42,946 bases of DNA from an uncultured Gammaproteobacteria bacterium (GTDB lineage Bacteria; Pseudomonadota; Gammaproteobacteria; Pseudomonadales; Pseudohongiellaceae), in NCBI GenBank assembly GCA_903837345.1, contig CAILUG010000010.1, forward strand, positions 1 to 42,946, written 5' to 3'. Below the pieces are notes generated by a model. It was not told the DNA's origin. It saw only the letters and a list, made by a program, of their open reading frames with translations, and ran no database searches. Shown piece by piece: positions 1 through 42,946 of this stretch (within the stretch, counting starts at the first letter, position 1; every line of letters starts with the position of its first letter). The translations under genes and the position numbers were made by a program.

Positions 1-824
1 GCCAGCTCCAGGTTCTGGCCCATGCGATTGAGCTCGACGCCCTCGACATACAGCTTGCTCGTCACCATCGCCATGATGTGGCCGCCGAAGAAGGTCTGTG
101 CTGCGTCCTCTGAGGCCTGAACCTTGATGTTGCGCGTCAAGAGGCCGACTTCGCCGCGCTCATCCACGTCGAAGGTGATCTTGCCGAAGTGCATGTAGTC
201 CAGCTTCTTGTCGAGCGTAAGCGTGTTGCCGCTGATGGCGGCAATGGAACGACGCTCGGCTTGGCGGGGATCGTAGTCCGTCGAGGCAAGCACAATCTCG
301 TCACCCTTCTGCCATTGTGCTGCGTTCAGCACTTCGATGGAGGTGGCGCCTGCTTCGGCGGTCTTGGCCAGTTTGGTCCAGGTATTGGTGCGGTTGCCGT
401 GCAGGTTCAGCGTGCCGCCCGAGAGCATGATGCCGCGGTCACCCATGCCCATCATCTGTTCGTCTTTGACGTTGTTGGTGAGGGTGATGGTGGCCTTGTG
501 TGTGTGGGGTTTGGCTTCGGTGCCGATCGCCAGTTCGCCGTGCACCATGATCCACTCAGTGCTCAGCTCCAGGTCGGCCTTGTCGGCGAAGCTGAGTTTG
601 CCATTGATCGTCACACCGCCCAGCGCTGGCGTACTGACGTCAAGAATCACGTCCTTGCCGCTCGCAATCTCTACCTTGTCGCCGGCGGCTGGCACTTTTT
701 TGTTGGGCCAGGTGGCAGGATTGGACCACAGTGCATCCTTGGCCTGGGCGTTAGTGTAGCCACCGAGCAGGAAACACAGTGGCAGGGCTAACGTCAGAAA
801 GGACACGCGAGAATTTATTGTCAT
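1..824 (-). CDS. G8-domain secreted beta-helix protein, copy 1 (3' end outside window)
   Basis: The first 274 codons of a minus-strand gene that runs off the left edge. The ATG at 824 is preceded by GGGAG (spacing about 9) and followed by a signal peptide ending near 'NAQA'. A G8 domain covers roughly residues 32-150 ('LWSNPATW', 'VPAAGD', 'VILDV', 'GKLSF', 'HGELAIGTEAKP', 'GGTLNLHG'). It continues into the 'KGDEIVLASTDYDPRQAE' segment, 'EVGLLTRNIKV' and 'GGHIMAMV'. It is clearly paralogous to the genes at 33760-36456 and 36483-39146, but its signal peptide differs, its first strands are more diverged, and it lacks their conserved leader. Family knowledge: G8 domains occur in CEMIP, TMEM2 and fibrocystin, which are extracellular proteins. 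The substrate is unknown. Confidence 0.9.
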   Translation of the reverse strand, partial: MTINSRVSFLTLALPLCFLLGGYTNAQAKDALWSNPATWPNKKVPAAGDKVEIASGKDVILDVSTPALGGVTINGKLSFADKADLELSTEWIMVHGELAIGTEAKPHTHKATITLTNNVKDEQMMGMGDRGIMLSGGTLNLHGNRTNTWTKLAKTAEAGATSIEVLNAAQWQKGDEIVLASTDYDPRQAERRSIAAISGNTLTLDKKLDYMHFGKITFDVDERGEVGLLTRNIKVQASEDAAQTFFGGHIMAMVTSKLYVEGVELNRMGQNLEL

Positions 825-982
825 GATTTTTGACTCCCGTAGTCGAGCAGATACTGAATAGCTTGGCTCCTTCATCACCAAGCGTAAGCGATTTTAAGTG
901 TAAATACGTGGAAAGAAAGCGGAAGCGGTAAAAGCGGCTGGGACAGCAGCTCTGCTGCTGCCCGTCTACATGGGCGTCAAGT

Positions 983-25197: not shown

Positions 25198-25474
25198 TCA
25201 ATGCGCCAGTGTGAAGGAGCCTGTTGCCTGTGTCGAGGCTATGGTGCCCTTCAGCGTCGTGCCGCCGCTGAGTGTAGCCGTCCACTTGTAGCTGTTGCTG
25301 CCCCCGGTTTCCTTGATCGGCAGTGAATACTGGATGGTTGCCACGTTGTCGGTGATCGAGCCAGTAACGGTTGATTGCGAAGTGGTAGTCAACGCGAATG
25401 CGCAGGTTTCAATATACCGCAGCTCAATGCCGTTGGCGCTGACGGTGCCACTCAGACTGCTGCCGGTCTGCTGC
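25198..25474 (-). pseudogene. 3' fragment of an unidentified gene fused to the truncated adhesin
   Basis: An open frame reading 'GQQTGSSLSGTVSANGIEL', later 'GGSNSYKWTATLSGGTTLKG', and stopping at 25198. It has the Ser/Thr/Gly-rich beta-strand style of a secreted or lipoprotein C-terminus. It has no start codon or ribosome site of its own. It begins where the adhesin's tandem-repeat homology ends (about 25474-25475) and lies in a different frame, so the adhesin frame terminates at 25452 inside it. Best read as the tail of another gene joined by deletion or recombination. Confidence 0.6.
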
Positions 25475-28400
25475 CCGTGTAGTTGCTGCCGCTGTTGCCG
25501 TCGGTGACAGTGACGCCACTGGTGGTGACGGTCTTGTTGCCGCTGCCGACATTTTTGTCGGTAAAGGCAAAGCTGCCACCGCTAAGCGTATCGCCACTGA
25601 ACAGCGTGCCGCTGCTGACCACCGCGGTGCCGGCAGCAGTGAGATCGCCGTTGTAAACCCGGCTGACATTGCTGGTGCTGAGCGTGAGTGGTGCGGTGGT
25701 GATACTGACGCTATCGGTGCCACCGGTAAGCGTGTAGTTCGCGGCCAGGCCGCCGTTGCTGCCGTCACCCAGTGCCAGTGAACCCAGCGTGAGAGTTTTA
25801 CCAACGCCGATGTTTTTATTAGCAACGGTGCCAGCACCAGACAGGCTCAAGGTTTCAGTGCCCACCAAAGCCCCTGTGCCCAGCACACTGGCCAGGATGT
25901 TGGCTGAACCATCGTAAACACGGGTGCCGTTAAGACTGACCACATAAGGTGAGATGGTACTGGCGTTATTCGCCGCGTAGCTGACCGTGTAGTTGCTGCC
26001 GCTGTTGCCATCGGTGACAGTGACACCACTGGTGGTGACAGTCTTGTTGCCGCTGCCGACATTTTTGTCGGTAAAGGCAAAGCTGCCACCGCTGAGGCTG
26101 TCACCACTGAACAGCGTGCCGCTGCTGACCACCGCCGTGCCGGCGGCAGTGAGATCGCCGTTGTAAACCCGGCTGACATTGCTGGTGCTGAGCGTGAGTG
26201 GTGCGGTGGTGATACTGACGGTAGCGGTGCCACCGCTCAGCGTGTAGTTGCTGGCAATACCACCGTTGCTGCCGTCACCCAGTGCGAGCGAACCCAACGT
26301 GAGAGTTTTGCTGTTACCGACGTTTTTGTCCACGGTTGTACCGGTACCGGACAGAGTCAGAGTCTCGGTGCCAACCAGGCTGTTGGTGGCAAGCACGGAG
26401 GCGGCAATATTGGAGCTGCCGTTATAAAGACGAGTGCCACTCAAGCTGACCACGTACGGTGAGATGGTGCTGGTAGTGTTGGCCGCATAGCTGACCGCGT
26501 AGTTGCTGCCGCTGTTGCCATCATTAACAGTCACTCCAGCAGTCGTGACAGTCTTGTTGGCACTGCCGACATTCTTGTCGGTAAATGCAAAACTGCCACC
26601 ACTGAGGCTGTCGCCACTGAACAGTGTGCCGCTGCTGACCACCGCGGTGCCAAGCGCAGTGAGATCGCCGTTATAAACCCGGCTGACATTGCTGGTGCTG
26701 AGCGTGAGTGGCGCTGTGGTGATGCTCACTGTATCGGTGCCACCGCTCAATGTGTAATTAGCTGCCAGGCCACCGTTAGTGCCATCCGCCAGTGCGAGCG
26801 AGCCCAGTGTGAGAGTTTTGCCAGCACCGACGTTTTTATTGGCAACGGTGCCGGTGCCAGAGAGGCTCAAGGTTTCGGTGCCCACCAATGTCCCTGTGCT
26901 TAGAACACCAGCCAGAATGTTGGCAGAGCCGTTATAACTACGGGAGCCAGAAAGACTTACGACTTTAGGGGTGACGGTAAGCGCCACATTGTTGAAAATG
27001 CTGGCAGCATAACCGGCGGGTTCCGTGATGTTGGCTTGTGCACTCACGCTGTAGGTGGTGCCACCATTTACCGGCGCAGTGGCAGCAAAGCCGGTTGAAG
27101 TCGCCGCGGCTGTGCCTGTATAGGCATCCTGCAGGAAAACATTGCCATAGGTGGCTGCGTTGACCAGACCGGTTACCACTACTGCAGGAGCCGAACCACT
27201 CAGGTCTGTACCATAGGTTTTGGAGATGTTGCCACCCGTGACACTGACGGTCAGTTGTGGCACCTGGCTGAACAGGTAGTGGCTGGTCAGATCGGTTATG
27301 GATGCTGGTGGGTTGCTGGCATAGGTTTTACCCCATAATGCATGACTACCACTGAGCAAGCCGCCAAACGTATCCAGCGCCGGACTGGTGGAGTACACCA
27401 GCCACGATGAATCGCCTGGTACAACCAGTGCCGCAGCACCGCCATTGTTGATGAAGTTGCTGCCGGCCAGCACGATACCGCCGGCAGTAACAGTGGCGCC
27501 GGCATTGATGGTCATAGGCCCACTGTTCACCAGTTCCAGCATCGGCGAGCCGGTATTGAACGCGCCGACGACAGTAATGCCACCTGTGTTGGCCGTGCTA
27601 CCAATCTTCAACGTGCGCAGATTGTTGCTGGTTACGGCGGTGGTAATGAAACTGGTGCCGCCAAAATCGATGCGTTTCGGTGCAGTGCCAACCGTAATGG
27701 CCATGCCCGCAGTAACGGGCGCTATTGTCAATTTTCCCGAGCCGGCGATGTCGGCGTTGAGGGTTACCTGGTCAGCCGTGATGTTGACTGCGCCATTGGT
27801 AACGATCTGGCTGTTGTTCAGAAAAAATCCGGTGCCTGCATTGAAGCTCATCGTGCCTGAGCCGTTCACACTGGAACCCTCTATCGTCATGCCGCCGGAT
27901 GCCTGCAGAATCGTGACGTTCTTGCTGCCGAAATCCACTACCTCGTTGGTGGCGATGTGGATGGCAGCCGTATCCGAGCTGTGACCAATGAAAAGACCAC
28001 CTGTCGTAGTGATGTTGGCCAGTTGCGCCTGGGTGATGTTGAAGGTGCCGGTGGTACTGCCTATACCGATGGCAAGTGTGTCTGAACTGCCGCGCAAGGT
28101 GACAGTACCGGAACCTGCATTGATAGTGCTGGTGTCAGTGAACGTTGAACCACCGGCAATGCTGATATTGCCGCCACCGGAGATCAGCGGTGAGGCAATC
28201 GTGACCGTTGCTGCCCCCGTCGTCTGGTTGATGGTGATTTTGCCGCCACCAGTATCAATGGGGCCGGCCAGATTGGTGAAGGTGGTGCCTGTACTGCTGA
28301 AAGCTCCACCAAAGGTGGTGACAGGAGCGCCCACCGCAACAGTTGATCCCACACCTGCTGCGGCAAGCGTGACATTCAGCGGTGACCCGGTGCTGCCCGA

Positions 28401-30008
28401 AATATTGCCACCCGCTGCAATGGTAATGGTGCCACCCGTGACTTGACCTGGTGTAAGTGTCAGTGTGGTGATGCCGGCACCTGTGCTTCTGGTAATCGGC
28501 GCAGACACTGTGATTGTGCCCGTTTGTGCCCCCCCGGCGTTGGTGGTCGTGATGTTGACATTGCCGGTTTCGAGTGCAGTTGAAATGGTGCCGGCGTTGA
28601 CGATTGCGGCATCCTGGTTCGGTGAGAAGATTTCTCCAGCGAATGATCCGGTGGTAGCACCGGTGGTGATATCGACATTGCTGGGATCCAGCAACCAGCT
28701 TCCTGCCGCTCCATGCGACGCACTGGTATTCACATTGCCACCTGGTACTTCCAGATTGAGCTTGCCCGAGGTTTCTACGTTGCCGCCTTGCCCTGACAAG
28801 GAGCCGCCACGCGCGCTTATGAATCCCGTAAAGCGGGTGAAATCATCAGACCAGACCACCACGTTGCCACCATCACCGGCTACCAGCGCATCGGCTTTGA
28901 TACTGGCACCAGGCCCTACATAGGTATTGTGTGCGTTTTGAACCAAAGCATTGCTGCCCTGCCTGCTGCCACCAACCAGAACCGTGCCGCCTCCGGCCGG
29001 GCCGGAAGCATTGATGCTGACTTCAAGCAGACCCACGCGTTCACCCAGCAACGCGATGTCGCCACCGCTGGCTGTGGCAGCCGTGCTGGTAGCGGCAATG
29101 TTGCCATTTGCCAACAGGGTGCCGGATTCAGATTGCACTGTGATCCCGCCACCCTGTCCGCCGCTGGCGCTAAGTACACTGTCTGCAGTGAGACTCACAT
29201 CATGACTGGCCCGCAGCACGATTTTGCCGCGTTCATCACGCACCACCTGATCAGCATTGATGGTGCCGCTGTTGTTGAGGGCAGCAGCATAGATGCCGAC
29301 TTGTCCGCTTTGCGCGATGATCTTGCCAAGATTTTCTGCAGTGCTGTCTTCGGCATTCAGTTCCACCCTGAGACCAGGCGTGGATGAATCAAATATTTTT
29401 ACAGAAGTTCCCGCCGCAAGGATCACGTCACCTTGCGGACTGCGGATTACCCCGCTGTTGCTGACTTTGGTGCCGATCAGATAAACATTGCCGCCGGTAG
29501 GCGTTGTGATGCTGCCCTGGTTATCGACTTTGCCTGCAAGCGTATCTACCCGGAAATTGAGCAGTCCGGCACGGAAATCATCATTGCTGAGGTTGAGTGT
29601 TGACGCTACCAGCGAGGCCACATCTACATGCGAATCAGATCCGAACAGGATGCCGGCCGGGTTGATCAGAAAGACCTTGCCATTGGATGACAGGGTTCCG
29701 AAGATACTGGAAGGATCAGGACCCACTACCCGATTCAGCACACTCGACGCAGCACTTTGCTGGACAAAACGCATGGTTTCGCCAGTGCCAATCGAGAAAC
29801 CTTGCCAGTGAATGATAGCGCCGGGGCTGTTGGTGATGCTCAGCAGTTTGCCTTGCGTAACAAAGCCGGCTTCGCCAGCCACGATTACAGGATCGGTGCC
29901 GTTGGCACGCGCATTATGGGCCGCCAAGACGCCGGAAATCGCCAGAGCCAGCGCTTTCAGTTTCGGCGTCATGGTTTTCTGCTTTGCACGGGACTTCGGA
30001 CTTTGCAT
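25452..30008 (-). CDS. Filamentous-haemagglutinin-type (TpsA) adhesin with YDG/MBG repeats, 3'-truncated
   Basis: 1518 residues from ATG 30008 (29972 also possible). After the signal peptide ('ALAISGVLAAHNARA') comes a two-partner-secretion domain (about 35-290) with 'GKVFLINPAGILFGSDS', the NPxG hallmark of haemagglutinin secretion domains. A long Gly/Ser/Thr-rich beta-helix follows, then 170-residue repeats, each of two YDG/MBG-like modules ('VSLSGSRSYNGSANI' type and 'STSNVSRVYNGDLTA' type). The third repeat breaks off at 'NYTG' and the frame ends nine codons later in foreign sequence, so the natural C-terminus is missing. No TpsB transporter is in the window. The TPS domain may still be exported, but surface function is doubtful. 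Confidence 0.85.
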   Translation of the reverse strand: MQSPKSRAKQKTMTPKLKALALAISGVLAAHNARANGTDPVIVAGEAGFVTQGKLLSITNSPGAIIHWQGFSIGTGETMRFVQQSAASSVLNRVVGPDPSSIFGTLSSNGKVFLINPAGILFGSDSHVDVASLVASTLNLSNDDFRAGLLNFRVDTLAGKVDNQGSITTPTGGNVYLIGTKVSNSGVIRSPQGDVILAAGTSVKIFDSSTPGLRVELNAEDSTAENLGKIIAQSGQVGIYAAALNNSGTINADQVVRDERGKIVLRASHDVSLTADSVLSASGGQGGGITVQSESGTLLANGNIAATSTAATASGGDIALLGERVGLLEVSINASGPAGGGTVLVGGSRQGSNALVQNAHNTYVGPGASIKADALVAGDGGNVVVWSDDFTRFTGFISARGGSLSGQGGNVETSGKLNLEVPGGNVNTSASHGAAGSWLLDPSNVDITTGATTGSFAGEIFSPNQDAAIVNAGTISTALETGNVNITTTNAGGAQTGTITVSAPITRSTGAGITTLTLTPGQVTGGTITIAAGGNISGSTGSPLNVTLAAAGVGSTVAVGAPVTTFGGAFSSTGTTFTNLAGPIDTGGGKITINQTTGAATVTIASPLISGGGNISIAGGSTFTDTSTINAGSGTVTLRGSSDTLAIGIGSTTGTFNITQAQLANITTTGGLFIGHSSDTAAIHIATNEVVDFGSKNVTILQASGGMTIEGSSVNGSGTMSFNAGTGFFLNNSQIVTNGAVNITADQVTLNADIAGSGKLTIAPVTAGMAITVGTAPKRIDFGGTSFITTAVTSNNLRTLKIGSTANTGGITVVGAFNTGSPMLELVNSGPMTINAGATVTAGGIVLAGSNFINNGGAAALVVPGDSSWLVYSTSPALDTFGGLLSGSHALWGKTYASNPPASITDLTSHYLFSQVPQLTVSVTGGNISKTYGTDLSGSAPAVVVTGLVNAATYGNVFLQDAYTGTAAATSTGFAATAPVNGGTTYSVSAQANITEPAGYAASIFNNVALTVTPKVVSLSGSRSYNGSANILAGVLSTGTLVGTETLSLSGTGTVANKNVGAGKTLTLGSLALADGTNGGLAANYTLSGGTDTVSITTAPLTLSTSNVSRVYNGDLTALGTAVVSSGTLFSGDSLSGGSFAFTDKNVGSANKTVTTAGVTVNDGNSGSNYAVSYAANTTSTISPYVVSLSGTRLYNGSSNIAASVLATNSLVGTETLTLSGTGTTVDKNVGNSKTLTLGSLALGDGSNGGIASNYTLSGGTATVSITTAPLTLSTSNVSRVYNGDLTAAGTAVVSSGTLFSGDSLSGGSFAFTDKNVGSGNKTVTTSGVTVTDGNSGSNYTVSYAANNASTISPYVVSLNGTRVYDGSANILASVLGTGALVGTETLSLSGAGTVANKNIGVGKTLTLGSLALGDGSNGGLAANYTLTGGTDSVSITTAPLTLSTSNVSRVYNGDLTAAGTAVVSSGTLFSGDTLSGGSFAFTDKNVGSGNKTVTTSGVTVTDGNSGSNYTGSRPAAV
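25475..26940 (-). repeat. 510-bp tandem repeats within the adhesin gene
   Basis: Near-identical units with an exact 510-bp period (landmarks at 26941, 26431, 25921): units 26431-26940, 25921-26430 and a partial unit 25475-25920. Each encodes 170 residues made of two different modules of about 85 residues. The high nucleotide identity shows recent expansion or homogenisation. Confidence 0.9.
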
Positions 30009-30176
30009 GGCGGGCGGAACCAGAAAGAATTGGAAGGAAGCGTGGTTGCCGGCTTGCAAGGTCACATGCCGATAAGCAGCACACGAGCAACCATTGCCAA
30101 CAGGATTGGTAAGGCCAACGGTTAGTCAAACCGGAACCGGATCGAGCGAATGATGCAGGATTGCAGCCGAAAGCTC

Positions 30177-33759: not shown

Positions 33760-36456
33760 TCACCTCTTCACCGTTATGCTGGTTTGCATAAGCGTCGGAC
33801 GCACCGGCGGCTCCGGATCTGCCGGGACTATCAGCTTGACCCACAGTGCGTTATCGCTCTTGAAATACGAGGTCTCGTTCGCCTTGCGCAAAGCATCCAG
33901 GCTGGCTTGCTGCGTGCCGGTGGCTGCGCTGGTGAAACCCGGCAGTTCGAAGATGACCCATGAATCCTTGTTCATCTCACTCAAGCTGAAAGCGACTTCA
34001 CGTCTTTCGGTTTGCACCTTGATCTCGGAGCCGGCGCGCACGGTGCTCTGGTTGCCAACGTGATATTCCTTGCCATTGCGGCTGAGCACCACTGGTGGTT
34101 GCGGTGGAGGTGGGTTGGCAAGCGCTGCGAGAATTCCGCCTGGGGCGGGAGCACCAGCAGCAGGAGCCGCTGCGCCCGGAGCATTGGCAGCACCCGCGCC
34201 AGGCGCACCAGCTGCACCGGGCGCACCACCTGCACCGGGCAGAGCGCCAAGGCCACGGTTACCGCCAGGGGCGTTGAAGTACAGACGTCCGATATCACCC
34301 GTGCACACAGAGGCGTTCCAGGTGGGATGAATCTCACAGGTGCTGTCAGTGGCGACGCTGTCGTTCTCGCCATCGTTGAGCAGCGCATAGGAGTTGGGGA
34401 TGCCGGTCGCCGAGCCGTCCAGATCGTGGATTGCCAGGGTCCGGTACGCTATGCCGCCGCGGTTGTCGTTATCGAACCGGGTATCGATCTTCGGAAAATG
34501 CACGGGCTTGGCATTGACGAATTTCGCACCCTTGATGGTGTTTTCGGTAGTGACCCCGGAGCTCGTGAACAACAGCCAGGAGAGTGCTCCTGATTGGCGC
34601 TGTTTGTTGTCCTGGAAATTCACGAACGTGGTGTTCGCCACGTCAACACGGTAGTCATAGTACTGGTAGCCGTGGATCGGGAAGTCGGGAATCAGGCGCT
34701 TCGGCAGGCTGCGGCCATAGGCTTTTTCCTCCGGCGTGGTGGGGTTGCCGATGTTGTCGGTTTCGCCCACGAACAGCGAATCCTCTACCCTCGAGGTAAA
34801 CGCCTCACGGCCGAAGTCGCCGGACGACATCGTGTAACCAACGGCATTGTCCGCCGTCTTCAGATTCCTGACGACAAACAACTCGCCGCGGCCCCAGAAG
34901 CCGCCATTGCGGTTCTTGTAGGTAAGGAGATTGTCGAAGTGCGTCTCCAGGCTCTTGCTGTTCCGGTCAGCAGGGTTTTCCTTGGGCGCGTACGCGTTGC
35001 CGGCCAACCCGAAGGTGTTGTCCTTGGCGATGTTGCGGTCAAACATGAATCCGTCGAAGTTGGAATGGGCCACATTGTCCCTGAACTCGCGCATCAAGGT
35101 TCGACGCGGCCAGCTGGCCTTGGCGGTATCCGAGTCCAGGAACGCGCCTTGCGGATGCTCGGGTAAGGACAGCCAGAAGCCATTCTCGTCGGAACCTGCG
35201 GCCACATTGCCGATGAACGTGTTGTCCGGGTTGGTGATCCAGTAGGCCGCCACCGTGTTGTCGGAAGGCAGCAGGGTGTCCTTGGCGGCAAAGCTGACTT
35301 GTCGGACTTTCAGGCGATCCTCGTACTTGTAGTCGTTCTCGCCGTTGGCGGCGAGATTGGTCGGCACGCAGGGCTTGGTCATGTGGCACTTGATCTGGAT
35401 CGCCAGGTTGTGCACGAACTCGTTGCCGTGCTCGATGCCGTCTTCCAGGAAGAAGCAGTGGCCGACGATGTTGTAGGTCACGTTGTTTTCGACGCGCACG
35501 TCGTTGGTGCCGTGTATGGTCACGCAGCGGTTGTAGGTGTCATGGATGGACGCGTTCTTGATGTACTGCCCTTTGCCGGCGTCGCCGACCAGATGCCAGT
35601 GAATTGGATAACGCGCGAGCTCCATGTTCTGGCCCATGCGATTGAGCTCGACACCGTCGACATACATGTGACTCGTCACCATCGCCATGATGTGGCCGCC
35701 AAAGGAAGTCTGTTCGGCATCTTCCGAGGCCTGCACCTTGATGTTGCGGGTCAAGAGGCCCACTTCGCCACGCTCATCGACTTCGAAGGTGATCTTGCCG
35801 AAGTGCATGTAGTCGAGCTTCTTATCGAGCGTAATCGTGTTGCCGCTGATGGCGGCGATCGTGCGACGTTCGGCCTGGCGGGGATCGTAGTCGGTCGAAG
35901 CCAGCACAATCTCGTCACCGGCTTTCCATTGCGCCGCGTTCAGCACGTCGATCGAGGTGGCGCCAGCTTCAGCAGTAAGCGCCAGCTTGGTCCACGTGTT
36001 GGTGCGGTTGCCGTGCAGGTTCAGTGTGCCGCCCGAGAGCATGATGCCGCGGTCACCCATGCCCATCATCTGTTCGTCTTTGACGTTGTTGGTCAGCGTG
36101 ATCGTCGCTTTGTGTGTGTAAGGCTTGGCTTCGGAACCGATCGCCAGTTCGCCGTGCACCATGATCCACTCGGTGCGAAGTAGAAGATCGGACTTGTCGG
36201 CAAAACTGAGTTTGCCATTGATCGTCATGCCATTCAGTGCCGGCGGACTGACGTCGAGTACAACGTTCTTGCCGCTGGCAATAGAGACGATGTCGCCCTG
36301 TGCGGGAACCTTGCCGTCAGCCCAGGTGGAAAGGGCCGACCAGTTTCCGCTTTTGACTGCGGTGGATTCAGCATGAGCGCTGAAGGCGAAACCGCAGGTA
36401 ACCAGCAATGAAAGAAACAACGAAACGCTGTGACTTTTTTTGCGATGAGGGCGCAT
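33760..36456 (-). CDS. G8-domain secreted beta-helix protein, CEMIP/TMEM2-like, copy 2
   Basis: 898 residues from ATG 36456, preceded by AGGAG. A signal peptide ends at 'AFSAHAES'. The G8 domain is at about 36-150 ('VPAQGDIVSIASGKNVVLDV', 'HGELAIGSEAKPYTHKATIT', 'GGTLNLHG'). Then come 'AGDEIVLASTDYDPRQAE' (180-196), 'EVGLLTRNIKV' (231-241), 'ARYPIHWHLVGDAGKGQYIK' (281-300), 'RCVTIHGTNDV' (310-320), 'GHCFFLEDG' (332-340), 'AAGSDENGFWLSL', 'NVAHSNFDGFMFD', 'SLFVGETDNIGNP', 'FPIHGYQYYDY' and a C-terminal beta domain. This order matches my memory of human CEMIP/TMEM2, minus their GG domain. Residues about 728-774 are an Ala/Gly/Pro linker found only in this copy. Family knowledge: CEMIP and TMEM2 take part in hyaluronan depolymerisation; activity here is unproven. 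Tandem with copy 3 (26-base gap). Confidence 0.88.
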   Translation of the reverse strand: MRPHRKKSHSVSLFLSLLVTCGFAFSAHAESTAVKSGNWSALSTWADGKVPAQGDIVSIASGKNVVLDVSPPALNGMTINGKLSFADKSDLLLRTEWIMVHGELAIGSEAKPYTHKATITLTNNVKDEQMMGMGDRGIMLSGGTLNLHGNRTNTWTKLALTAEAGATSIDVLNAAQWKAGDEIVLASTDYDPRQAERRTIAAISGNTITLDKKLDYMHFGKITFEVDERGEVGLLTRNIKVQASEDAEQTSFGGHIMAMVTSHMYVDGVELNRMGQNMELARYPIHWHLVGDAGKGQYIKNASIHDTYNRCVTIHGTNDVRVENNVTYNIVGHCFFLEDGIEHGNEFVHNLAIQIKCHMTKPCVPTNLAANGENDYKYEDRLKVRQVSFAAKDTLLPSDNTVAAYWITNPDNTFIGNVAAGSDENGFWLSLPEHPQGAFLDSDTAKASWPRRTLMREFRDNVAHSNFDGFMFDRNIAKDNTFGLAGNAYAPKENPADRNSKSLETHFDNLLTYKNRNGGFWGRGELFVVRNLKTADNAVGYTMSSGDFGREAFTSRVEDSLFVGETDNIGNPTTPEEKAYGRSLPKRLIPDFPIHGYQYYDYRVDVANTTFVNFQDNKQRQSGALSWLLFTSSGVTTENTIKGAKFVNAKPVHFPKIDTRFDNDNRGGIAYRTLAIHDLDGSATGIPNSYALLNDGENDSVATDSTCEIHPTWNASVCTGDIGRLYFNAPGGNRGLGALPGAGGAPGAAGAPGAGAANAPGAAAPAAGAPAPGGILAALANPPPPQPPVVLSRNGKEYHVGNQSTVRAGSEIKVQTERREVAFSLSEMNKDSWVIFELPGFTSAATGTQQASLDALRKANETSYFKSDNALWVKLIVPADPEPPVRPTLMQTSITVKR

Positions 36457-36482
36457 GGCAGATCTCCTGTGTTCGATTATTT

Positions 36483-39146
36483 TTATCGGCTGACCGTTAT
36501 TCTGGCTTGCAGATCCGTTGGGCGAATGATTGGACTGACCGGAGCAGCGGCCACCAGCTTGACCCAGAGGGCATCCCCGCTCTTGAACCAGGCAGTCTCT
36601 TTCGCTGCGCGCAATGCGTCCATGCTCTTCAGCTCCGTCCCGGTTGTTGTTTTGGCAAAACCCGGCAGTTCGAACATGACCCAAGAGCCCTGGTCCATCT
36701 CAGTCAGACTAAGAGTGACTTCCGTCCTTTCGGTTTTGACCTTTATCTCGGTGCCGGCCTTCACAGTGCTCTGGTCGCCGGAGATCTTGAATTCCTTGCC
36801 GTTGCGAACAAGCGCGATGGGCGGCTGCGGAGGACGACGGGCGCGCAGAGCGGCACGTTGGGACTGAACGAGGGGAGTTGCCGGAGCATTTGGACTGAGC
36901 CCACCGATCAAGGCGAAGCGAGCGGTCCGGGATTCGAGATCGACTTTGGCTGGAAATTCTCCTCTGCTGTCCGAGAGATTCAGGCGACCGATATCGCCTG
37001 TGCACACAGCGGCGTTCCAGGTCGGCTGGATCTTGCAGGTGTCGTCGGTGGCGACGCTGTCGTTCTCGCCATCGTGCAGCATGACCTGGGAATTGGGGAT
37101 GCCGGTCACCGAACCGTCCAGGTCGCGGAACGACAGGGTCCGATAGGCGTTGCCGCCGCGGTTATCATTATCGAACCTGGTATCGAAAAGCGGGAAATAG
37201 ACCGGCTTGGCATTGACGAATTTCGCACCCTTGATGGTGCTTCCGGTACTGAGCCCCGCGCTCGTGAACAGCAGGAAGGAAAGCGCGCCTGTCTTGCGCA
37301 CCTTGTTATCCTGGAAATTCACGAATGTCGTGTTCACCACATCATCGCGGTAATCGTAGTATTCGTAGCCGCGGATGGGGAAATCCGGAATGGAAGGCTT
37401 TGGCAGGCTGCGGCCATAGGCGATTTCCTCCGGCGTCTTTGGGTTGCCGATATTGTCGGTCTCACCCACGACCAGCCCATCAATCAGCCGTGAACTAAAC
37501 GGAAGGCTGCCGATGTCGCCAGCGGCCTGCGTCATGCCAATGGCGTTGTCAGCGAATTTCGCGTTGCTGTATACGTAGAGATCGCCCCGGCCCCAAAGAC
37601 CCCCATTGCGGTTCTTGTAGGAGGTCAGGTTCTCGAAGTGTGTCTCCATCACTTCGCTCTCCAGATCGGAAGGATCTGCCAACGGCAGCAACGGAAGGGA
37701 GGCCAGACCGAAGGTGTTATCTTCGTCGATGTGCCGGTCAATCATGAACCCGTCGAAGTTGGAATGGGACACGTTGCCCCTGAATGCGCGCAGCGGCGTT
37801 CGGCGCGGCCATGTATTCAGGCTGGCATCTGAGCCCTGGAACGCGCCATTCGGATGCATCGGAATGGAAAACCAGAAACCTGTCTCATCAGAGCCGGCTG
37901 CCACATTGTCGATGAACGTGTTGTCCGGGTTGGTGATCCAGTAGGCCGCCACCGTGTTGTCTGAAGGCAGCAGGGTATCCTTGGCGGACATGCTGATTTG
38001 CCTCAGGGTCTGGCGATTCCCGCTGATCTCTCCATTGGCGGCGAGATTGCTCGGCACGCATTCCTTGGTGGGATGACACTTGATCTGGATCGCCAGGTTA
38101 TGGATGTACTCGTTGCCGTGCTCGATGCCGTCCTCGAGGAAGAAGCAGTGGCCGACGATGTTGTAGGTCACGTTGTTCTCGACGCGCACGTCGTTGGTGC
38201 CGTGCACCGTCACGCAGCGGTTGTAGGTGTCGTGAATGGAAGCGTTCTTGATGTACTGGCCTTTGCCGGCATCGCCCACCAGATGCCAGTGAATCGGATA
38301 GCGCGCGAGCTCCATATGCTGGCCCATGCGGTTGAGCTCCACGCCCTCGACATACATCTTGCTGGTCACCATCGCCATGATGTGGCCGCCGAAGAAAGTT
38401 TGTGCTGCGTCTTCCGAAGCCTGCACCTTGATGTTGCGGGTCAACAGACCCACTTCGCCACGCTCATCGACGTTGAAGGTGATCTTGCCGAAGTGCATGT
38501 ACTCCAGCGGCTTGTCCAGCGTGATCGCATTGCCCGCGATGGCGGAGATCGTGCGACGTTCGGTCTGACGGGGATCGTAGTCGGTCGAAGCCAGTACAAT
38601 CTCGTCACCGGCTTTCCATTGCGCCGCGTTCAGCACTTCGATCGACGTGGCGCCTGCCTCGGCGGTCTTGGCCAGCTTGGTCCAGGTGTTGGTCACGTTA
38701 CCGTGCAGGTTCAGCGTGCCGCCCGACAGCATGATGCCGCGGTCACCCATGCCCATCATCTGTTCGTTTTTGACGTTGTCGGTGAGCGTGATGGTCGCCT
38801 TGTGCGTGAAGGGCTTGGCTGCGGTGCCGATCTCCAGTTCGCCGTGCACCATGATCCATTCGGTGCGAAGTAGAAGATCGGATTTGTCGGCAAAACTGAG
38901 TTTGCCATTGATCGTCATGCCGTTCAGTGCCGGGGGACTGACGTCGAGTACAACGTTCTTGCCGCTGGCAATAGAGACGATGTCGCCCTGTGCGGGAACC
39001 TTGCCGTCAGCCCAGGTGGAAAGAGCCGACCAGTTGCCGCTTTTGGTTGCGGTGGATTCAGCATGAGCGCTGAAGGCGAAACCGCAGGTAACAAGCAATG
39101 CAAGAAAAAAGGAAACGCTGTGACTGCTTTTGTGAAGAGGGCGCAT
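36483..39146 (-). CDS. G8-domain secreted beta-helix protein, CEMIP/TMEM2-like, copy 3
   Basis: 887 residues from ATG 39146, with the same AGGAGATCT leader as copy 2. The first 75 codons (signal peptide and first G8 strands) are almost identical to copy 2, whereas later parts differ freely. The same landmarks are present: G8 domain about 36-150, 'ASTDYDPRQTE', 'EVGLLTRNI', 'ARYPIHWHLVGDAGKGQYIK', 'RCVTVHGTNDV', 'GHCFFLEDG', 'AAGSDETGFWFSI', 'NVSHSNFDGFMID', 'GLVVGETDNIGNP', 'FPIRGYEYYDYRDD'. The region between helix and C-terminal domain is Arg/Pro-rich rather than Ala/Gly-rich. It is first of the tandem pair and cotranscription with copy 2 is likely. It is predicted to be secreted or cell-surface associated; substrate unknown. 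Confidence 0.88.
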   Translation of the reverse strand: MRPLHKSSHSVSFFLALLVTCGFAFSAHAESTATKSGNWSALSTWADGKVPAQGDIVSIASGKNVVLDVSPPALNGMTINGKLSFADKSDLLLRTEWIMVHGELEIGTAAKPFTHKATITLTDNVKNEQMMGMGDRGIMLSGGTLNLHGNVTNTWTKLAKTAEAGATSIEVLNAAQWKAGDEIVLASTDYDPRQTERRTISAIAGNAITLDKPLEYMHFGKITFNVDERGEVGLLTRNIKVQASEDAAQTFFGGHIMAMVTSKMYVEGVELNRMGQHMELARYPIHWHLVGDAGKGQYIKNASIHDTYNRCVTVHGTNDVRVENNVTYNIVGHCFFLEDGIEHGNEYIHNLAIQIKCHPTKECVPSNLAANGEISGNRQTLRQISMSAKDTLLPSDNTVAAYWITNPDNTFIDNVAAGSDETGFWFSIPMHPNGAFQGSDASLNTWPRRTPLRAFRGNVSHSNFDGFMIDRHIDEDNTFGLASLPLLPLADPSDLESEVMETHFENLTSYKNRNGGLWGRGDLYVYSNAKFADNAIGMTQAAGDIGSLPFSSRLIDGLVVGETDNIGNPKTPEEIAYGRSLPKPSIPDFPIRGYEYYDYRDDVVNTTFVNFQDNKVRKTGALSFLLFTSAGLSTGSTIKGAKFVNAKPVYFPLFDTRFDNDNRGGNAYRTLSFRDLDGSVTGIPNSQVMLHDGENDSVATDDTCKIQPTWNAAVCTGDIGRLNLSDSRGEFPAKVDLESRTARFALIGGLSPNAPATPLVQSQRAALRARRPPQPPIALVRNGKEFKISGDQSTVKAGTEIKVKTERTEVTLSLTEMDQGSWVMFELPGFAKTTTGTELKSMDALRAAKETAWFKSGDALWVKLVAAAPVSPIIRPTDLQARITVSR

Positions 39147-39736: not shown

Positions 39737-41281
39737 TCAGCGAGCGGGTAATGGCACAGCACGATTCACATCGTACTGCACGGGACAACCGAACACGGGA
39801 ACTCCCGCAGTCTGCTGATCCGCACAGAATTTCTGGGCGGCTTCCATCTGTCGCTGGTTGTTCGCACGCGTCACCTCGATGGACAAGCCGCCATTGGGCC
39901 CGTGCACGGCCACGTTGAGCCGCGGATCGATACCGTAGGCCTTGAGGTTTTCGTTCAGTGCACTGGCCCACCAGTTCCAGGTCCACGTGGCATCGCCGAA
40001 GTCACCTTCCATCATGATGCGCGCGGCGGGGAGATAGGCGAAGACGGCGTTGGCCATGTGCGAGTGGCCGAGCACATGGTAGATCTCGAGGCGCTGCGTA
40101 CCGTCGTCGAGCACGAGCTTCTCGTCCACGGGGGTAAACACCAGTGGATGCGGGCTGCGCGCCAGTTCGTCCGGATACAACACAGCCGGCCGCGAGATCA
40201 TCTCGCGGAAGATGGCTTCGTTGCCCCGGTGCGAGATCACCGCGAGGCCGCGCGACACCGCGGCGCGCAGGCCCGCCGTGTGGTCGAAGTGATGGTGCGT
40301 GACGATGAGCTGCGTCACGACTTTCCCGGGCACGAGGCGGTTGGCCGCGTCGATGCGTGCCAGCGTCGCTGCTTCACTGCCATTGGCCTCGAACAACACC
40401 AGGTGATCGCGGAACTCGATGGCCGGGCCGCCGTTGTTATTGCCAACGCGCACGTCCCACACACCCTTGGCAAGTGGCGTGACAGTCACCGCGGGCGGCG
40501 CTGCGACCGGTGTCGGCGCGTTCGCCTGTGCGGCAGGAATCGCGGGCATCTGCCCCGGCCCCACGTTCAGCCGGTACGAATCGACCTGGAACATCAGCGT
40601 CACCTGGCTGCGCCAGTCGATGCGATTCATGAGCCCGTAGGGCAGCATCACGCCGGCTTGCGGGATGTACCCGGTGAACAGCGATGTCACGGCCACGTCC
40701 CCGAGGTTCGCATGCGGGATGACTCGTCTGGTCCATGCCGGCAGGTGCGTCACCGGGTCCACGCCCATCAGTACGGATTCGCCCTCCGCGGTGGTGAACT
40801 GCAGTACGGGCAGGCCCTCTTCCACGCTGACAGCTCCCAGCCGTGCGGCAGGATCGAGCGCGGCAAGCACCGCTGGCAGCGGATGATCGAGCAGGTCAAC
40901 GGTGCCCTGCGGCGCGGAAGTGCGATTCCAGTTCAGACCGAATGGCGCAGCGAATGGGAACATGGGCGCGCGCCGCAGTTGCATCAGGGCTCGGTGCGAC
41001 TTCAGGTCGATGCTGCGCTGTGCATCGGCGATAGCGCGCCACTTGGTGGGCGCGTTCACGTCCGCGGTGATGTTGCCACCACCCTCCATGTAGGCGTCCT
41101 GGCCGAAGCCAGTGTAGATCAGCGTATCGATGCGCTGCAGGCGCTCACGTCCACCCATGGCCGTGGCCACCTGATCCAGCAGGTGCTGGGCTGGCGACTG
41201 TTGCGCACTGGCCGGTGCCATGCCGCTGAAGAACACGGCAAGCACGGCGGCGACGGAGAACGATCGTAATGGGTTTTTCAT
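39737..41281 (-). CDS. Exported MBL-fold metallohydrolase with N-terminal lipoprotein-carrier-like domain
   Basis: 514 residues from ATG 41281, overlapping the stop of the preceding gene (ATGA), with AGGAG upstream. A signal peptide ends near 'APASAQQS'. Residues about 30-240 are a beta-rich domain ('HLLDQVATAMGGRERLQRID', 'LPVLQFTTAEGESVLMGVDP', 'FTGYIPQAGVMLPYG') resembling those fused to many exported MBL proteins. An Ala/Pro linker follows and then the MBL domain: 'VTHHHFDHTAGL' (H329, H331, D333, H334), 'VLGHSHMANAV' and 'MMEGDFGDATW'. This gives a two-zinc hydrolase of unknown substrate. It lies between an uncharacterised secreted protein and the ABM protein. Confidence 0.87.
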   Translation of the reverse strand: MKNPLRSFSVAAVLAVFFSGMAPASAQQSPAQHLLDQVATAMGGRERLQRIDTLIYTGFGQDAYMEGGGNITADVNAPTKWRAIADAQRSIDLKSHRALMQLRRAPMFPFAAPFGLNWNRTSAPQGTVDLLDHPLPAVLAALDPAARLGAVSVEEGLPVLQFTTAEGESVLMGVDPVTHLPAWTRRVIPHANLGDVAVTSLFTGYIPQAGVMLPYGLMNRIDWRSQVTLMFQVDSYRLNVGPGQMPAIPAAQANAPTPVAAPPAVTVTPLAKGVWDVRVGNNNGGPAIEFRDHLVLFEANGSEAATLARIDAANRLVPGKVVTQLIVTHHHFDHTAGLRAAVSRGLAVISHRGNEAIFREMISRPAVLYPDELARSPHPLVFTPVDEKLVLDDGTQRLEIYHVLGHSHMANAVFAYLPAARIMMEGDFGDATWTWNWWASALNENLKAYGIDPRLNVAVHGPNGGLSIEVTRANNQRQMEAAQKFCADQQTAGVPVFGCPVQYDVNRAVPLPAR

Positions 41282-42660
41282 TTGCGTGGCTCCTGACTGA
41301 AGTCGAAGATGTCGTCTTCTGTGGGTTTCTTCATGCCCTGTTCCCAGTACTTTTCCCAGATCTGTGTCCAGGGTCGGCCATACATGTCGGGCACTTCGTA
41401 TTCGATCACGCGTCCCGGCGTCACCGGCGTGGCCGTGCCCTTCAGCGGGTAGATGGTCTGGACGCACTGAACGAACGGAATGGGGGCCACGTCGGCGTCG
41501 GCGAAGTCGGCGCGCTTGTCCATGCGCTGGACGATCCGGATGGGTTCCACCAGCGCTTCGGAATCGTAGAGCACGGCCTCGTGGTTCAGGCCGGTGAATT
41601 TGCCGCTGGCGTCGTGCAGCGGCGTGTAGATCTCGATCGACTGCATCTTCCCCGAATTCTCGAAGGCCGTATGTGAAGTCCAGGCCTGGATGTTCGAGGT
41701 CCAGGTGATGAGCGTGTCGTGGTCCCAGAAGCCGACGGTCTCGCCATACCAGCGCGGTACCTGTTCGCCCAGCCGGGGCACCGGCCCATCCATCTTGAAT
41801 GAGCGCCCCACGTGGATGCTGGTGATGAAGTTCTCCGCCCCGCTCATGAAGATCTGCACCATTTGCGGCGTGACCATCACCTGGCGGTCATAGGCGGCCC
41901 ATTCATGCCAGCGCCGCATGAAGCCCTCGGGCCAGCAGAACTGCGCGGTCCACATGGGCTTGTTCGTATGGCCATGGTGGTAGGTCTCCTGCACCAGGCG
42001 CTGCCGGTACTCAGGGGTCAGCAGCGACAGCACCGTCGGCACCTGCGTGTGGCGCATCGTGATCCAGGTGTCGTTGCCCGGACTGAAGCGAGGTTGGCGG
42101 TAAACCCCGTTCCATTCGTCGGGCAACGTGGCAGGCGTTTTCACGGTGGGCCCGCCATGTTTGCGGGTTTCCTCGAACAGTGCCTCGTAATGCGCCTGGG
42201 CCGTGCGGAAAGGATACGGACTGACGATGGAGCTGCGGGGGTAGTCGCGGTCGCAGTAGCCCCAGGGTGCCGAAGCCGGCATGTTCCTGGCGGCGTCGCC
42301 CGCCGCGCCCACGCCCACCCACAGGTTCTCGATGGCAATGAGGCTGTTGCAGCGGAAGTACCGCGGATCGCTCCACAGCGCGCGGTCGGCATAAAAGTCA
42401 GTGGTAGTGAACAGATCGTGGGGCAGCGGCTTGATGCCGGCCGGCGTCTGCCCTGCCGGCGCTGATCCATTGAAGGCACCGTTGCGCTGCTGGGTGGCGC
42501 CGACCTGAGGAGATGCATTGATGTCGTCGGGCAGCGGCGCGGCGCGCCCCACGCTCCGGTATCCGATATCAGGCAGTTGTTGCGCGCAGAGTGAACCGTA
42601 TGCACCCGGCATCGCGGCGCACAGCAACGCAGAAAAAATCCTGTTGCCGGGAATTTTCAT
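41278..42660 (-). CDS. Uncharacterised secreted protein, 460 residues
   Basis: ATG 42660 is preceded by GAGGGG, and a signal peptide ends near 'YGSLCAQQ'. Characteristic stretches: 'PLPHDLFTTTDFYADRALWS', 'SLLTPEYRQRLVQETYHHGH', 'QFCWPEGFMRRWHEWA', 'MVTPQMVQIFMSGAENFITS', 'VPRWYGETVGFWDHDTLITW', 'ALVEPIRIVQRM', 'VIEYEVPDMYGRPWTQIWE'. I recall homologues in sphingomonads and related proteobacteria, where they are annotated as hypothetical; no function is known to me. Many aromatic residues and His/Trp clusters suggest an enzyme or ligand-binding beta protein. It is first gene of an operon with the MBL and ABM genes, with its own promoter candidate at 42690-42719. Confidence 0.78.
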   Translation of the reverse strand: MKIPGNRIFSALLCAAMPGAYGSLCAQQLPDIGYRSVGRAAPLPDDINASPQVGATQQRNGAFNGSAPAGQTPAGIKPLPHDLFTTTDFYADRALWSDPRYFRCNSLIAIENLWVGVGAAGDAARNMPASAPWGYCDRDYPRSSIVSPYPFRTAQAHYEALFEETRKHGGPTVKTPATLPDEWNGVYRQPRFSPGNDTWITMRHTQVPTVLSLLTPEYRQRLVQETYHHGHTNKPMWTAQFCWPEGFMRRWHEWAAYDRQVMVTPQMVQIFMSGAENFITSIHVGRSFKMDGPVPRLGEQVPRWYGETVGFWDHDTLITWTSNIQAWTSHTAFENSGKMQSIEIYTPLHDASGKFTGLNHEAVLYDSEALVEPIRIVQRMDKRADFADADVAPIPFVQCVQTIYPLKGTATPVTPGRVIEYEVPDMYGRPWTQIWEKYWEQGMKKPTEDDIFDFSQEPRK

Positions 42661-42756: not shown

Positions 42757-42946
42757 TTAGTGCGCGGTCGCCTTACGCAGGGCGTCGATGCTGTCCTGCT
42801 GCTTTCCGGAGGCCGCGTTGGCGAAACCCGGCAGCTCGAACACGACCCATGAGTCTTTGGCCATTTCACTCAAACTGATGGCAAGTTCCGGTCTTTCGGT
42901 CTTCACACGGATCTCGGTACCGGCGCGCACAGTGCTCTGGTTGGCC
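42757..42946 (-). CDS. G8/beta-helix protein, copy 4 (C-terminal end only; 5' end outside window)
   Basis: The last 63 codons of a fourth paralogue, entering from the right edge: 'NQSTVRAGTEIRVKTERPE', 'ISLSEMAKDSWVVFELPGF', 'DSIDALRKATAH', then TAA at 42757-42759. Copies 2 and 3 continue for about 35-40 more residues after 'DALRKA', including a final strand ('ALWVKL') and a Pro-rich tail. This copy therefore lacks the end of the C-terminal beta domain. No frameshifted continuation is visible downstream. It may be naturally shorter or recently truncated. Confidence 0.82.
   Translation of the reverse strand, partial: ANQSTVRAGTEIRVKTERPELAISLSEMAKDSWVVFELPGFANAASGKQQDSIDALRKATAH

Follow-up and report, generated by a model that had tools for sequence, protein, structure and literature searches.

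Two long open reading frames (ORFs), arranged in tandem on a 42,946-nucleotide stretch of contig CAILUG010000010.1 (assembly GCA_903837345.1) from an uncultured gammaproteobacterium of the family Pseudohongiellaceae, raise the question of whether bacteria make relatives of the hyaluronan-linked human proteins CEMIP and TMEM2 and, if so, what such relatives might do. A preliminary description of this stretch, hereafter the window, had proposed a kinship of both with CEMIP/TMEM2. We confirm the two ORFs at the coordinates given there, on the minus strand, and name their products P0001 and P0002. Comparisons by sequence, by profile and by predicted structure all show homology to human TMEM2 across the whole β-helix, and we regard this homology, together with the domain architecture described below, as practically certain.

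Both proteins carry, in order and well above cut-off, the two Pfam models of the G8/CEMIP_beta-hel superfamily: G8 (PF10162; 108.6 bits for P0001 and 105.7 for P0002, cut-off 22.9, E = 2.5e-31 and 1.9e-30), a search that the preliminary description had itself proposed, and CEMIP_beta-hel (PF24606; 268.2 and 269.5 bits, cut-off 27.3, E = 7e-80 and 2.9e-80). A scan of both against NCBIfam gave no match at E ≤ 0.01. A phmmer search of all PDB sequences with P0001 returned human TMEM2 (8c6i) at E = 9.4e-87; the nine other matches at E ≤ 1 are tautomerases (E = 0.21–0.43) and look like chance. When 71 bacterial sequences (P0001, P0002 and 69 of the 87 distinct family sequences that were extracted at full length) were aligned and the resulting profile compared with PDB sequences, TMEM2 was the sole match at E ≤ 10, with E = 2.6e-124. 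The stretches of P0001 matched by TMEM2 are residues 52–164 and 173–727; within the latter, 195 of 536 aligned positions are identical (36%), and of the 174 columns with conservation of 97% or more among the bacterial members, 112 have the same residue in TMEM2. TMEM2 residues are numbered here as the 8c6i chain index plus 82, an offset derived from how the construct is described and tested against the unpaired Cys554 and Cys750 of Niu et al. (PMC10206443; this and all later statements credited to that paper draw on part of its text).

The features of the pair, which share 75% identity (665/886), are as follows.

33760..36456, minus strand: P0001 gene, 898 residues, with signal peptide, G8/β-helix region, Gly-Ala-Pro linker and C-terminal β domain
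36483..39146, minus strand: P0002 gene, 887 residues, tandem paralogue upstream of P0001
36457..36482, minus strand: intergenic gap of 26 bp, with a GGAG ribosome-binding-site-like sequence
36370..36456, minus strand: Sec-type signal peptide of P0001, about residues 1–29, with an AHA end, read by eye
39060..39146, minus strand: Sec-type signal peptide of P0002, about residues 1–29, read by eye
35980..36327, minus strand: G8 domain of P0001 (Pfam)
38670..39017, minus strand: G8 domain of P0002 (Pfam)
35053..35706, minus strand: CEMIP_beta-hel (PF24606) of P0001 (Pfam)
37752..38393, minus strand: CEMIP_beta-hel (PF24606) of P0002 (Pfam)
35431..35613, minus strand: proposed active core of P0001, residues 282–342, in which R282, Y283, H286, H288, H305, R310, H315, H333, E338, D339 and E342 are invariant in 71/71 and identical in TMEM2
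38121..38303, minus strand: proposed active core of P0002, residues 282–342
33763..34110, minus strand: C-terminal 116 residues of P0001, resembling a TMEM2 domain (domain X by order)
36486..36836, minus strand: C-terminal domain of P0002

A GGAG ribosome-binding-site-like sequence precedes both starts, and the two genes are probably co-transcribed. The series of motifs on which the preliminary description had based its proposal can largely be read in both proteins (EVGLL.RNI, FGGHI, YPIH.HL.GD, IHDT..RCVT.HG.N, GHCFF.EDG, N.AAGS.E.GFW and P.WN..VC.G). Others need amending: P0002 reads QTE for QAE, SHSN for AHSN and GLVVGE for SLFVGE, and 'YKN..G....G' and 'LP....FPI.G...YD' as spelled match neither protein, the residues being present at a different spacing.

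An AlphaFold2 (AF2) model, template-free and computed from the 71-row bacterial alignment only, has a mean predicted local distance difference test score (pLDDT) of 85.5 and a predicted template-modelling score (pTM) of 0.87, with the linker at residues 730–781 below 50. Compared with known structures by Foldseek, this model finds the TMEM2 crystal structure (8c6i_A) first, with E = 2.8e-46, a query-normalised template-modelling score (TMq) of 0.73 and 22% identity over 1114 columns. The runner-up among the best 50 of 348 rows falls to E = 1.6e-10 and TMq 0.19; the matches after TMEM2 in this set, all with TMq near 0.2, are generic β-helices from K1 capsule lyases and phage tailspikes. The alternative in which only G8 is shared and the rest is an unrelated β-helix is therefore ruled out by alignment, profile match and structure match with TMEM2 alike.

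An invariant core and absent lectin-like domains

Within the β-helix, H255, R282, Y283, H286, H288, H305, R310, H315, H333, E338, D339 and E342 are present in 71/71 members and all are identical in TMEM2. The core pattern R-Y-x-x-H-x-H / H / E-x3-E corresponds to TMEM2 residues R546, Y547, H550, H552, H585, E608 and E612 in the numbering derived in this analysis. It also extends to distant G8 proteins that are 21–33% identical to the family: nine of eleven such loci cover the core, and all nine keep Y283, H286, H288, H315, G332, E338, E342 and N350, with R or K at position 282 and H255 in eight. Six of the nine were placed by multiple alignment (a genome of the same order, Vitreoscilla, Planctomyces, Antarctobacter and two viral-collection contigs) and three by tblastn (Salipiger, Leisingera and Rhodobacteraceae S2214). 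In the distant loci phmmer gave no match in L132, L180, L182 or L183 and an N-terminal piece only in L181; rechecked by tblastn, L180, L181 (in a second piece) and L182 span the core and keep it, while L132 and L183 stop short of it and are uninformative for conservation. The AF2 model has strands at 285–291, 312–317 and 333–337, which appear to lie on one face of the helix, turn after turn, and from these strand positions H286/H288, H315 and the E338 region should stack.

The architecture around this core is simpler than that of TMEM2. The preliminary description had stated that the GG domain of CEMIP is absent, and this holds: no insert is seen in 71/71 aligned members, and ILEI, which we take to be the Pfam name for the GG domain, has no match at E ≤ 10 in P0001 or P0002. 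Between positions 160 and 180 all 71 bacterial members have 21 residues, where TMEM2 has about 175 more, and this TMEM2 region consists of a small β-sandwich and lectin-like domain 1 with R265, D273 and D286, substitutions of which are reported to abrogate TMEM2 activity (PMC10206443). The kinship had been taken to fail if homology stopped at G8 and the acidic and His residues that matter in TMEM2 were lost. Since the His/acidic β-helix core is kept and homology reaches well beyond G8, that objection falls; the residues that mutagenesis is reported to show as important in TMEM2 (R265, D273 and D286) do lie in the missing domain.

The profile match to TMEM2 extends no further than chain position 923 of 1301, so that by sequence nothing in the bacterial members corresponds to lectin-like domain 2; in all 71 of them 84–187 residues remain after position 731. 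The C-terminal 116 residues of P0001, modelled alone (pLDDT 87.1), match TMEM2 in Foldseek with TMq 0.73 and probability 1.00, but with a weak E of 0.033 that ranks second; the other 49 rows of the best 50 of 86 have TMq ≤ 0.44. From the order of domains, this match would be to TMEM2 domain X. P0001 and P0002 should not be filed as CEMIP proper, since the test for a GG/lectin-like domain showed it to be missing.

Proposed function and its alternatives

The reading that we favour, with a probability of roughly 0.6, is that sequence and model describe a secreted, lectin-less β-helix enzyme acting on polysaccharide; that its active site lies at the invariant core we consider slightly more likely than not. 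The catalytic site would be the R-Y-x-x-H-x-H / H / E-x3-E ladder, on successive turns in the middle of the helix, and the enzyme, extracellular or periplasmic, would cleave an acidic polysaccharide of the uronic-acid type, either through β-elimination (by Tyr/His/Arg or metal-assisted) or through hydrolysis. The animal lectin-like domains would then be separate add-ons that bind and present hyaluronan, in keeping with the interpretation of Niu et al. that binding, not catalysis, is the role of R265 in TMEM2 (PMC10206443). More tentatively, the bacterial family may be a minimal CEMIP/TMEM2 enzyme, with the ladder as its active centre, possibly holding a metal, and the lectin-like domain as a substrate-presenting add-on. 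In that case the lack of a metal or partner may explain why one study saw no activity with purified TMEM2.

A number of observations weigh against an enzyme. Purified soluble TMEM2 had no hyaluronidase activity in one study, in which two long loops are also described as covering the middle of the TMEM2 helix (PMC10206443); bacterial loop 356–400 aligns with the first of them. No activity is reported for any bacterial member in the literature covered. The conserved core could be structural, the His ladder is read from strand positions, and in viral contig L138 one pairwise alignment leaves unaligned the Y-x-x-H-x-H block that the multiple alignment shows to be there. The window has no polysaccharide-utilisation locus, the scanned neighbours being major facilitator superfamily (MFS), metallo-β-lactamase (MBL)-fold, DUF6265 and family-less proteins. 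Nor is any partner gene common to all of 77 loci, which represent the best 80 of 221 relative-encoding stretches found by a pattern scan of a genome collection, some of them overlapping. PF07470 (unsaturated-uronyl-hydrolase type), counted because it is expected downstream of a uronate lyase, gave a mixed outcome: it is found in 7/11 carrier genomes, in six of them above cut-off, and not in G180 or G208, carriers outside the window's family.

The inactivity of soluble TMEM2 reported by Niu et al. (PMC10206443) would also suit a non-catalytic surface or matrix protein that binds its own or a foreign polysaccharide without cutting it, and a high copy number and linkers of variable length also fit surface proteins. 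We think such a binder unlikely, given that a polar, charged core present in 71/71 members and kept at 21–33% identity is what one would sooner expect of a catalytic or metal site, and that the bacterial proteins lack precisely those parts of TMEM2 that are obviously suited to binding, its lectin-like domains. Nor do we expect the family to be true hyaluronidases feeding on animal hyaluronan or chondroitin: their close kinship with TMEM2, for which hyaluronan depolymerisation has been reported, speaks for it, but the reported TMEM2 activity residues sit in the missing domain, no cluster for glycosaminoglycan utilisation lies beside the genes, and there is no animal-associated sign, the record titles of the best loci (which state no habitat) suggesting lakes, sediment, soil and sea. 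Hyaluronan itself is accordingly an improbable natural substrate.

A metal-dependent chemistry of another kind has also to be considered, in which the His/Glu ladder binds a transition metal and the protein works as a redox depolymerase with periplasmic electron carriers. The HxH + H + E pattern resembles metal ligands, and one Ni2+ is present in the crystal model of soluble TMEM2, at a position not given in the text seen (PMC10206443). Clusters of related genes that recur near family copies point the same way, one of pyrroloquinoline quinone (PQQ) dehydrogenase-cytochrome fusions in 6 of 77 loci and two of small cytochromes c in 5 of 77 each (one member of each cluster was scanned by Pfam, and two loci overlap, leaving four distinct genes in one cytochrome cluster). 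Secreted-looking ORFs with a CxxCH haem motif are more frequent within 5 kb of family genes (10/144) than in the background (8/340; p = 0.031). This enrichment is weak: it is one of three uncorrected tests, the others not being significant (all CxxCH ORFs, p = 0.09; secreted ORFs, p = 0.60), its observations are not independent, and the near set includes four genomes (G003, G007, G009 and G027) absent from the background. The genes scanned beside the window's pair include no cytochrome or PQQ protein, and the calcium requirement stated for TMEM2 in the part consulted of PMC10474455 fits a lyase equally well. We give redox chemistry little credence.

Further copies, distribution and gene neighbourhood

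The window holds two truncated copies in addition to the pair of the preliminary description, one at each end.

3..881, minus strand: third copy, N-terminal 293 residues with G8, cut by the contig start
42763..42942 (start approximate), minus strand: further copy, C-terminal piece, cut by the contig end

A search of the whole assembly with P0001 found eight pieces on five contigs. Six of the eight touch a contig end or stop no more than about five bases short of one, as is expected of repeats that break assembly; in C10 and in C38 alike, the piece at the contig start breaks at residue 280. Where they overlap, the 42763–42942 piece and the end of the copy on C31 are identical in sequence, and the two are probably the same gene. 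Since the end pieces of C10 and C31 are alike in this way, the eight pieces represent fewer than eight genes, and our estimate for this genome is at least five. Elsewhere the family is likewise multi-copy, with up to 12 matches per genome among seven carrier genomes searched (the maximum in an Altererythrobacter bin, L090). At G208:C4:830004-833226, two copies have their CEMIP_beta-hel match split in two, the first pair in different frames, suggesting that copies in this tandem array are decaying genes.

PF24606 is found in 16/57 related genomes: in 11/11 of the window's own genus (its own genome included) and 4/4 of genus g2, in 0/21 from six other genera of the family, and in 1/21 from the rest of the order. 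In a sample of Pseudomonadota it is found in 3/398 genomes, again with its own included. Presence throughout the genus and in g2, together with named Erythrobacteraceae isolates, rules out eukaryotic contamination. The best loci are titled uncultured Gammaproteobacteria, Nevskiaceae, Steroidobacteraceae, Erythrobacteraceae, Caulobacterales, Bryobacterales and other Acidobacteria, among others. Bins titled 'Klebsiella pneumoniae' (L071) and 'Bordetella parapertussis' (L055) also carry the family; the former title is almost certainly a misnomer. On a tree of the 71 members, computed with a quick model, without animal sequences and with 11/71 rows lacking a class label, class labels need 13 changes where the minimum is 3, and paralogue clades mix Alpha- and Gammaproteobacteria and Acidobacteria. 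This pattern is compatible with old paralogues and with transfer alike, and the combination of bins, paralogues and a quick model leads us to make no firm claim of transfer.

Among 72,556 plasmid records ten match, the best being from Croceibacterium (65%), where two copies flank genes for a MarR regulator, a TonB receptor and DUF6152 proteins. No phage record matched the family, and scans of viral contigs confirmed 0/2, 1/27 and 2/14 candidates, the two of the third scan being distant relatives; on this evidence these are not typical phage genes. The end of one IMG/VR contig (L125) is a fragment with 68% identity to the family, and this may be a case of host DNA binned as viral. On a Leisingera plasmid (L181, 3001–4181) the annotation splits a distant G8 gene into two coding regions that overlap, and another G8 gene follows at some distance. 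Seven Roseobacter-group plasmid records were found and five viewed, four of which have a glycosyltransferase gene near the distant G8 gene, one also with GH16, a hint that members of the wider G8 superfamily may process exopolysaccharide.

The best recurrent neighbour across the 77 loci is a protein of 245–392 residues in 8/77, representing seven distinct genes because L091 and L122 overlap; the one member scanned has no Pfam match. In L049, L053, L091, L105, L110, L118 and L122 a secreted-looking form of 294–392 residues directly adjoins a family gene (six distinct cases, given the same overlap), and in L119 the relative is about 5 kb away. Tannase-type esterases (one member scanned by Pfam) and proteins resembling TonB receptors (by eye) also recur, as does, in L058, L060 and L095, a three-gene set of DUF1592/1588/1585/1587, DUF1552 and ankyrin-repeat proteins. 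Within the window, 41278–42660 encodes a secreted-looking protein of 460 residues with no Pfam or NCBIfam match, a 465-residue relative of which adjoins the second of two family genes in L111. At 25452–30065 lies a large exoprotein with a two-partner secretion (TPS) domain and six YDG repeats, for which no partner transporter was identified among ten neighbouring proteins scanned.

Comparison with known systems

The existence of such proteins is not new, because plasmid records bear the label 'G8 domain-containing protein' and Pfam models match them. We found no description of bacterial CEMIP/TMEM2 homologues in the open literature searched, among the papers listed; in the parts consulted, CEMIP and TMEM2 figure solely as human proteins in a review of microbial hyaluronidases from 2026, and a 2024 review has CEMIP in its references only. 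The architecture, copy number and cross-kingdom core thus appear undescribed in that literature, and a multi-copy bacterial family is brought to light. In animals the enzymatic status of TMEM2 and CEMIP is itself disputed, PMC10206443, PMC10276149 and PMC10474455 disagreeing by their titles and abstracts, and the location of the TMEM2 active site is called an open question in PMC10206443.

The plasmid-borne 'G8 domain-containing proteins' of Vitreoscilla, Planctomyces and the Roseobacter group (some otherwise named) share G8 and a β-helix with the HxH / H / E-x3-E core, but at 21–33% identity and with other C-terminal parts they belong to a wider superfamily and not to the family of P0001 and P0002. 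With the Klebsiella K1 capsule lyase (7W1C, the Foldseek match at E = 1.6e-10 and TMq 0.19 to the bacterial model) and chondroitinase B (1OFM) the bacterial proteins have a right-handed parallel β-helix in common. No sequence relation to β-helix lyases appeared in phmmer or in the profile search of the PDB, and chondroitinase B is not among the best 50 of 348 Foldseek rows. Chondroitinase B and PL6 enzymes hold a catalytic Ca2+ on two acidic residues, only one of which is reported to be kept in TMEM2 (PMC10206443). The likeness to CEMIP (KIAA1199, HYBID), whose GG domain the bacterial proteins lack, comes through the Pfam family name and the G8 domain of the literature, not through sequence comparison.

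Human TMEM2 (CEMIP2, PDB 8C6I) is the closest known system, the same in its G8 domain and CEMIP β-helix, in the whole fold and in its core, and with a domain that the bacterial C-terminal part resembles. The bacterial proteins differ in lacking the insert of about 175 residues and anything seen to match lectin-like domain 2, in having a signal peptide, as read by eye, in place of the membrane anchor, and in the Gly-Ala-Pro linker before the C-terminal domain. Production in E. coli and direct testing would be feasible for a soluble bacterial homologue of this kind, 36% identical and free of lectin domains, and the cross-kingdom comparison names seven human TMEM2 residues for mutation. The core common to the bacterial proteins and TMEM2 points to where the active site of the family may lie.

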